Source: Gemmatirosa kalamazoonensis (GTDB lineage Bacteria > Gemmatimonadota > Gemmatimonadetes > Gemmatimonadales > Gemmatimonadaceae). From it: a stretch of DNA of 64,000 nt. Positions 46,871-49,618 of this stretch are shown here, in pieces. The stretch spans positions 2,712,220-2,776,219 of the forward strand of contig NZ_CP007128.1 of assembly GCF_000522985.1 (NCBI RefSeq), read 5' to 3'. The stretch's first letter is position 1. Each line of letters starts with the position of its first letter. Both the position numbers and the translations under genes were made by a program. The notes below the pieces were generated by a model that was not told the DNA's origin, ran no database searches, and saw only the letters and a list, made by a program, of their open reading frames with translations.

Positions 46871-47686
46871 TCACGGGCGGCGCGGCGCGGGGGGCGGCGG
46901 CGGCACGGTCGGCCGTCGCACGGGCGCCCGGGCAGCCGCGCCGGCGACGGGAGCATCCGCATTCACCGCGCCGGCAGCCGCGTCGGGCGGAGGAGGCACC
47001 GTCGGTCGCGGCACGGTGGTCGGCGCGGGTGCCTTCGGTGCCGGCACGCCGGCGTGCGCCGTGTCCGGCGTCGTTCCCGGCTGCGACAGCGTCCGCACGT
47101 ACGCCGCGAGACGTCGCACGTCCTCCGCCGACAGCTGCCCCGCGTACGACGGCATCGCGACCCGATAGCTCGGCGACGGTGGCGCCCCGCGGGTGATCAC
47201 CTGCGCGATCGCGGCCACCGATCCATCGGTGAGCCGTCCGGGGATGAGCCGCAGGCTGGGGCCGAGCCCCGGCGCGCCCTCGCCGATCGGACCGTGGCAG
47301 CCGACGCAGCGCCCCGTGCCGTGGTACACCGCGTCTCCGGCCACGCTGTCCGCGACCGTGACGACGTCGGTCGGCGTGCTGTCGATCGCGGCGGGCGCCG
47401 GCATCGGCGCGGTATCGAGCGCCGGGGCGTCCGACGCGCCGACGTGCGGCGCCACGCTCGACGCGAGCGTGCTGTCGTCCGGCAGCCGATCCGCGCCGCG
47501 TCGCCCGAACAGCGCGTCGGGCCCGGGCAGGAAGCCGAGGTACAGCGCGAGCCCGGCGCTCGCCGCCGCGACGATGCCGAGGAACGCGAGCGCGATCGGG
47601 ACGGCGCGGCTCCGCTTTCGTCCGCGCCTGGGGCGCCCACCGCTGCCGCGTGACCCACCGGACGCCGCGCGCCGCGGAGGGCTCAT
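46871..47686 (-). CDS. Membrane-anchored c-type cytochrome
   Basis: This 271-residue product starts at 47686, overlapping the stop of the zinc-ribbon gene (ATGA). An Arg/Gly-rich cytoplasmic tail precedes one membrane helix (about residues 29-52). A Pro/Ala linker follows, then one heme c site CVGCH (127-131) and a distal Met in the segment RVAMPSYAGQLS. The C-terminus is a Pro-rich repeat tail (VPRPTVPPPPDAA, VRRPTVPPPPPAP). The domain matches class I cytochromes of the cbb3/CccA type and faces the periplasm. No oxidase genes are adjacent, so the electron partner is unknown. Confidence 0.82.
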   Translation of the reverse strand: MSPPRRAASGGSRGSGGRPRRGRKRSRAVPIALAFLGIVAAASAGLALYLGFLPGPDALFGRRGADRLPDDSTLASSVAPHVGASDAPALDTAPMPAPAAIDSTPTDVVTVADSVAGDAVYHGTGRCVGCHGPIGEGAPGLGPSLRLIPGRLTDGSVAAIAQVITRGAPPSPSYRVAMPSYAGQLSAEDVRRLAAYVRTLSQPGTTPDTAHAGVPAPKAPAPTTVPRPTVPPPPDAAAGAVNADAPVAGAAARAPVRRPTVPPPPPAPRRP

Positions 47687-48465
47687 CGCGCGCCGGTGCC
47701 GAGCGCCGCGTCGTCCATCGCCCGTCCGCAGGTGATGCAGTAGTGCCACCCGACCTCGAGCTCCGTGCTGCACGCCGGGCAGTGCCTAACGGTCACGTTC
47801 TGGCCGCAGTGCGGGCAGTACGTCACCGGCCGTCCTTCGGGGAGCGCCTGGCCGCAGTAGCGGCACGGGCCTCCGATCGCCGTCGGGCCGGGGCGCGTCT
47901 CGTGCGACGACGGCGCGGGGATGTCACGCAGTGGCGCGGTCGCCGGCGGCGGCGTCTCCGGCATCGCGCCGGCGGGCGGCCACGATGCGTCGAGCTTCGG
48001 CGAGTCGAGCTTCAGCGAGTCGAGCGTCGGCGCCTCGAGCATCGGCGCCTCGAGCGTCGCCGTCTCGTCGCGCGGCGCATCGGCGCGCGGCGCATCGGCG
48101 CGCGGTGCCTCCGCGGTCGCGCCGGTCGTCGTCGCGCTGCCCGTCGTGCCGTTGGTCAGCGCGACCGTCGCGAGCGCGTGATCGCGCAGCACGGCGGCGT
48201 CGGGCTCCGGCGACGCGAGCGCGCGGCGGAACGCGTCCGCCACCGTCGGCTCGACGCGCAGGTAGCCTCGCTCCCCCGAGGCGAGGCGCATGAGCGCGAG
48301 CTCGTACTGTCGGGCCGACTCGAACCGCAGCGACGGACGGTTCGTGCGATACGGCACGAGGTGCTCCTGGATGTCGCCGAGCCGGAACGTGCGCTCCAGG
48401 AGGTGAGGGAAGCCGTCGCGGACGTTCGCGACGAGGCGTTCGTGGAGGCGATCGAGGTCGTCCAT
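47683..48465 (-). CDS. Double zinc-ribbon protein with repeat linker
   Basis: This is a 260-residue predicted cytoplasmic protein. The N-terminal ~80 residues are helical (LHERLVANVRDGFPHLLERTF). The linker has imperfect repeats of ADAPR, LEAP and LDS words. The C-terminus carries four CxxC knuckles, CRYC, CPHC, CPAC and CITC, forming two zinc ribbons. Such ribbons act as protein or nucleic-acid docking modules. It is the first gene of an operon with a cytochrome c and a lipoprotein. The function is not known. Confidence 0.65.
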   Translation of the reverse strand: MDDLDRLHERLVANVRDGFPHLLERTFRLGDIQEHLVPYRTNRPSLRFESARQYELALMRLASGERGYLRVEPTVADAFRRALASPEPDAAVLRDHALATVALTNGTTGSATTTGATAEAPRADAPRADAPRDETATLEAPMLEAPTLDSLKLDSPKLDASWPPAGAMPETPPPATAPLRDIPAPSSHETRPGPTAIGGPCRYCGQALPEGRPVTYCPHCGQNVTVRHCPACSTELEVGWHYCITCGRAMDDAALGTGAR

Positions 48466-48794: not shown

Positions 48795-49400
48795 TCACCG
48801 GCCGCCGAACGCCACCGCCGCTGGCGGGAACGGATCGACGACTCCGCGCAACGCCCCCTTCGCCTGTTGCGTCGACACCCATGCCTCGAACCCCGACGGC
48901 ACGAGGCCGCGCGACGCCGTGCGCTCCGCCGCCGCGCGCGTCGCGAGGAAGTTCGCGTACTCGTTCTGCGGATGCCCGTTGTGCCCGCGCACCCACCGCC
49001 ACGCGCATTGATGCGCCTCGACTTCCGCGACGGCCTCCTGCCACAGCTCGAGGTTCTCGATCGGACCCGTCTTCCGCGTCCAGTTGCGCTTCATCCACGA
49101 CGGCACCCACTGCGTCATGCCGTCGACGATGTACTTCGAGTCGCTCGTGAACACGACGCTGAACGTGTTGCCCTTGCGCGACAGTCCGCGGAACGCCTCG
49201 ATCACCGAGCGCAGGGCCATGCGGTTGTTCGTCGTGTCCGGCTCGCTGATCCAGTAGTCCCAGCGCAGGATCTCGCCGGTGCGCGGGTGCTTCCACTCGA
49301 CGAGCCCTCCCGCACCGCCCGGCGTCGCGCCGGCCCGACCGTTGCCGAGGCACGACTCGTCGGCGTACACCGCGACGAGCGGATGTGCCGCACCGCTCAC
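48795..49400 (-). CDS. rnhA: RNase HI-like protein lacking two catalytic acids
   Basis: This 201-residue protein starts at GTG 49400, overlapping the stop of the preceding small gene. The RNase H fold is clear: VYADESCLGNG, then TTNNRMALRSVIEAF, FTSDSKYIVDGMTQW, and WRWVRGHNGHPQNEYANFL. Compared with the E. coli enzyme, Asp10 (here 14), Asp70 (87) and His124 (140) are kept. Glu48 is replaced by Ala62 and Asp134 by Asn150. Gly11 is replaced by Glu15, next to the first Asp. RNase HI cuts RNA in RNA-DNA hybrids by a two-metal mechanism using these acids. Activity is therefore doubtful or altered. Confidence 0.82.
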   Translation of the reverse strand: MSGAAHPLVAVYADESCLGNGRAGATPGGAGGLVEWKHPRTGEILRWDYWISEPDTTNNRMALRSVIEAFRGLSRKGNTFSVVFTSDSKYIVDGMTQWVPSWMKRNWTRKTGPIENLELWQEAVAEVEAHQCAWRWVRGHNGHPQNEYANFLATRAAAERTASRGLVPSGFEAWVSTQQAKGALRGVVDPFPPAAVAFGGR

Positions 49401-49618
49401 TCCACCACCTCGAACCGCTCGATCTCGTCGATGTAGATGTCGAGGCGGTCGCCGGTGGTTGGATGGGTCGCCTCGATGATCTCGCGGCCCCCGGTGAGCC
49501 GCAGTCGTCGCGGCACGACGACGACCTCGCGCTTGCCCGAGCGAAGCACCGAGATGCGCTTGCCGTCGACGACCGCGCGCTCCAGCGCGTCGTACTGCTT
49601 CGTGGTGAAGATGCTCAT
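49397..49618 (-). CDS. Small protein coupled to the RNase HI-like gene
   Basis: This is a 73-residue, beta-rich, charged protein, with RISVLRSGKREVVVVPRRLRL and GDRLDIYIDEIERFEVVE as its best-defined segments. The ATG at 49618 has TAGCTT 6 bases upstream, though part of that box is the stop codon of the M20 gene. Its stop overlaps the GTG of the RNase HI-like gene. The tight coupling suggests a functional link with nucleic-acid metabolism; the family is unknown to me. Confidence 0.55.
   Translation of the reverse strand: MSIFTTKQYDALERAVVDGKRISVLRSGKREVVVVPRRLRLTGGREIIEATHPTTGDRLDIYIDEIERFEVVE

Follow-up and report, generated by a model that had tools for sequence, protein, structure and literature searches.

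An LC9-type (DEDN) RNase HI in Gemmatirosa kalamazoonensis, with a relocated glutamate beside the first aspartate and a changeable fourth active-site position among its relatives

The window analyzed here is a stretch of 64,000 nucleotides from the genome of Gemmatirosa kalamazoonensis (contig NZ_CP007128.1, positions 2,712,220 to 2,776,219 of the forward strand). It carries a complete and genuine rnhA-type gene, which is listed in Table 1 together with its active-site codons and its conserved neighbor. The gene product matches the Pfam profile PF00075 (RNase_H) over profile positions 4-140 of 141 (E=1.2e-28; 100.5 bits, cut-off 25.8). This is its sole Pfam match at E values up to 1, and the RNase HII profile PF01351 gave no match in the same search. 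Against NF001236, the NCBIfam equivalog of typical RNases HI, the protein scored 125.8 bits, below the cut-off of 160. An AlphaFold2 model (pLDDT 90.8) has the RNase H fold; a Foldseek search with this model returned PDB 4ibn first (TM 0.89), and the 50 best PDB matches listed were RNases HI or mutants, variants and chimeras thereof. The same entry was the best match in a PDB sequence search (E=1.8e-75, with the runner-up at 4.9e-28). The genome is reported to be 100% complete. An earlier sequence-only reading of this DNA had proposed to look for a second RNase H gene in the genome; the search yielded no other RNase HI, either by PF00075 or by NF001236, and one RNase HII gene (G000:C2:4426882-4427421), which carries an Asp-Glu pair in the motif GIDEVGRGP.

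Table 1. Position in the window of the RNase H gene, its active-site codons and the conserved upstream reading frame.
Feature	Position	Strand	Remarks
rnhA-type gene, RNase HI of LC9 (DEDN) type	48795..49400	minus	201 aa, GTG start; Pfam, PDB, predicted fold
Asp14 and relocated Glu15 codons (E. coli Asp10, Gly11)	49356..49361	minus	GAC GAG; invariant 180/180
Ala62 codon (E. coli Glu48)	49215..49217	minus	GCC; invariant 180/180
Asp87 codon (E. coli Asp70)	49140..49142	minus	GAC
His140 codon (E. coli His124)	48981..48983	minus	CAC
Asn150 codon (E. coli Asp134)	48951..48953	minus	AAC; relatives with DE..A..D: N 144, D 31, H 4
73-aa ORF, conserved neighbor	49397..49618	minus	directly upstream, 4-base overlap with RNase H gene

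The proposed coupling of the RNase H gene to a 73-residue gene is real: the overlap with the RNase H start consists of the four bases GTGA. A copy of this small reading frame lies upstream on the same strand at 78 loci, 77 of them among the 116 loci that have at least 400 upstream bases, and mostly within about 40 bases. Its product (consensus QYDALERAIxDGRRIxVxRRGTExVVIPxRLxLxGGRExIEARHPTTGDxLTLYLDE) has no Pfam or NCBIfam match and no PDB match by profile. Farther upstream, a peptidase of the M20 family was found at 53 of the 62 loci with sufficient sequence. On the other side of the gene, positions 47683-48465 of the window (minus strand) encode a protein of 260 aa whose C-terminal part is a double zinc ribbon (PF12773); most related loci have it close to the RNase H gene. 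The surroundings of the RNase H gene are an ordinary conserved gene cluster.

Alignment with E. coli RNase HI, for which the stretch from the PDB match was used with the wild-type Asp written at position 134, pairs D10 with D14, G11 with E15, E48 with A62, D70 with D87, H124 with H140 and D134 with N150. The site alignment is unambiguous, as the motifs YADESCLGN, TNNRMAL, SDSKY and GHNGHPQNEYAN are ungapped. Alignment and codons thus agree with the substitutions that had been read from the sequence (Glu15, Ala62 and Asn150, with the counterparts of Asp10, Asp70 and His124 kept), and the typical DEDD set (Asp10, Glu48, Asp70, Asp134) is incomplete in the window protein at A62 and N150. Overall, the two proteins are 39% identical and have in common the fold, D10, D70, H124, the TNNRM motif and the Trp-rich substrate-binding segment. 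Among 180 related sequences of the clade described below, D14, E15, T57, N58, A62, D87, S88, Y90 and three Trp residues are invariant. Sequencing error or chance is excluded, because E15 and A62 occur in 180/180 and N150 in 144/180 of these sequences.

The best match, 4ibn, is LC9-RNase H1, a metagenome-derived enzyme (Nguyen et al., FEBS Lett 587:1418-1423, 2013) whose PDB title reads 'LC9-RNase H1, a type 1 RNase H with the type 2 active-site motif'. It is 62.6% identical to the window protein over 190 residues, both proteins share a C-terminal extension, and at all six positions it has the same residues (D, E, A, D, H and N), its N159 corresponding to N150 of the window protein. In the tree, both proteins are nested in one clade, with support of 99/88 for a set of 14 rows that contains the two; within the clade, LC9-RNase H1 belongs to another sub-branch than the window protein. 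The source of LC9 is very probably a member of the Gemmatimonadota, because the tree places it inside the sequences of this phylum; its nearest row is 74% identical. RNase HII (RnhB, PF01351) resembles the window protein in the Asp-Glu pair that ends the first strand. However, it is a separate family; the window protein matches PF00075 only, and the common Asp-Glu arrangement looks convergent.

A PF00075 match was present in 195 of 200 sampled genomes of the phylum, nearly always once per genome. We classified 196 locus sequences together with the window protein, LC9 and E. coli RNase HI. A full D..A..D core was present in 180 sequences, and in every one of them the first Asp is followed by Glu and the helix has Ala. 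In all 13 typical sequences these two positions are occupied by Gly and Glu; intermediates with both Glu residues or with neither were absent from the classified sequences. At the fourth site, the 180 sequences comprise 144 with Asn, 31 with Asp, four with His and one that ends before the site. The Ala and/or the Asn is also retained in three more sequences whose N-terminus is truncated or misread. The swap seems to be a trait of one class within the phylum, because the readable members of another class (family code f10) carry a divergent RNase HI-like protein with the typical motif; three of the weak PF00075 matches of the f10 class were absent from the classification scan.

A few loci of the phylum depart from this picture. 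In L134, L135, L136 and L137 (from another class and, in the case of one family, f8, from within the class), the only RNase HI-like proteins are short and distant ones with typical D-G / E / D motifs, and the fourth acid is aligned in one of the four. Inside the class, the sole PF00075 match of locus L003 (genome G164) is a very divergent RNase HI with the typical motif and a branch length of 3.6, which points to replacement or contamination.

Searches of two other phyla and of viral contigs and a peptide-pattern scan revealed one case outside the phylum, L041; the scan covered 84,980 species and retained the best 80 loci, so that rarer or more divergent cases are possible. L041 lies on a contig labeled Candidatus Kuenenia stuttgartiensis (a Planctomycetota-labeled MAG) and encodes a DEDN RNase HI that is 65% identical and nested among Gemmatimonadota sequences; the contig is probably mis-binned. 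The DNA pattern for D-E-S-C-L-G-N, which recovers 167 of 178 known cases, was found in 0/77 genomes of the phylum of the Nitrospinota locus. Its occurrences in 2/398 genomes of the phylum of the Pseudomonadota locus were both short chance peptides. Spread by phages or plasmids was also considered and rejected: the search for close relatives revealed none on viral contigs, and phages and plasmids gave no match at 60% identity or more.

Trees were built with the trait columns taken out. One branch separates the Glu/Ala sequences from the typical ones (SH-aLRT 97 with 109 rows; 100/100 with 75 rows), and the two-site swap has a single origin. At the fourth site, parsimony requires about 15 changes between N, D and H, of which the starred branches alone force 9 to 10, and a single Asn clade is rejected by the AU test (p = 2e-6). 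Close relatives differ here, as with the Asp of L155 beside the His of L172; these two, L067 and others of the same clade have His or Asp in place of Asn. It had been suggested that the Ala/Asn/Glu combination might define a clade. Glu and Ala do so, but the full combination is no clade marker, because the fourth site switches repeatedly. Residue differences between members with Asn and members with Asp look like shared ancestry. It is likely that, after the second catalytic Glu had been relocated next to the first Asp, the fourth ligand was free to evolve: within one class it would have changed between N, D and H no fewer than 9 to 10 times (parsimony: 15), with no change in the other three carboxylates. 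The outcomes include natural D-E, A, D, D sites, in which an RNase HI fold carries a set of four acids resembling that of RNase HII. No description of this lability was found in the literature searched, and the 2013 LC9-RNase H1 paper may contain one.

We read the window protein as an RNase HI of the LC9/DEDN lineage in which the Glu of helix A is replaced by the Glu after the first Asp, with a probability of roughly 0.93. The support comes from the sequence, the predicted fold, the invariance and single origin of the swap and the sole genomic copy. The sequence-only reading had first proposed a different view, in which the replacement of two of the four canonical acids at the E. coli positions leaves an RNase HI fold that is catalytically dead and can bind RNA/DNA hybrids but not cut them. 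This is hardly credible. The lost Glu is made good by the Glu beside the first Asp in 180/180 sequences, a homologue with the same site is described in its PDB title with a type 2 (RNase H2-type) active-site motif, and the genome, like nearly all others sampled in the phylum that have a PF00075 match, has this single RNase HI gene only. Conservation is strong in the motifs that mark an active enzyme, and the dead-enzyme reading is rejected because the Glu is relocated and invariant and a homologue has been solved. That reading's second proposal, rearrangement of the metal site, is supported; such a site had already been published for LC9-RNase H1.

Alternatively, the enzyme might be active but Mn2+-dependent, or have the specificity of RNase HII and cut at single ribonucleotides. 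The Asp-Glu pair is placed as in RNase HII, and E. coli RNase HI mutants at Glu48 and/or Asp134, including E48A/D134N (PDB 1wsg), have been studied with Mn2+ (Tsunaka 2005). Nevertheless, we consider this very unlikely, as the genome has an RNase HII of its own and the protein has the scaffold, His loop and Trp-rich substrate-binding segment of an RNase HI. LC9-RNase H1, too, reportedly resembled RNase H1 in its enzymatic properties, and mutational analysis is said to have put its second catalytic Glu on strand 1 beside the first Asp. A dedicated complex with the 73-residue protein as obligate partner, in place of a stand-alone RNase HI, appears unlikely as well, despite the 4-base overlap and the immediate upstream, same-strand copies at 77/116 loci: about one third of the adequate loci have no detectable copy (divergent ones were possibly missed), LC9 RNase H was crystallized alone, and co-transcription by itself is no proof of a complex. 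The window gene thus encodes an ordinary RNase HI of a member of the Gemmatimonadota, probably an active one, and its product is another member of the known DEDN type rather than a dead enzyme.

How the rearranged LC9-type site may work can be proposed from the E. coli enzyme, where metal B is tightly bound by Asp10 and Glu48, and metal A is loosely held by Asp10, Asp134 and the main-chain carbonyl of Gly11 (PMC8900815). Glu15, on strand 1 directly after the first Asp, would take the place of Glu48 at metal B, and Asn150 (Asp or His in relatives) may suffice at the looser metal A site. The enzyme would serve in ordinary housekeeping, e.g., in the removal of hybrids and primers, with single ribonucleotides left to the RNase HII of the genome. 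Positions 48 and 134 are already explored by mutation in E. coli RNase HI, as the PDB holds structures of D134N and of E48A/D134N with Mn2+.

The rearranged site itself is known, and the new point is a modest one, namely that the fourth ligand switched repeatedly while the core with its relocated Glu stayed invariant. Judged by the canonical columns alone, almost an entire bacterial class would seem to have an inactive RNase HI, and the present analysis would correct the reading of a living enzyme as dead. The lineage offers a natural Asn/Asp/His series on a fixed D-E-D core for testing the fourth ligand of two-metal nucleases, and its D-E, A, D, D sites, if the proposed release of this ligand is true, would be a natural test of the ligand's contribution.
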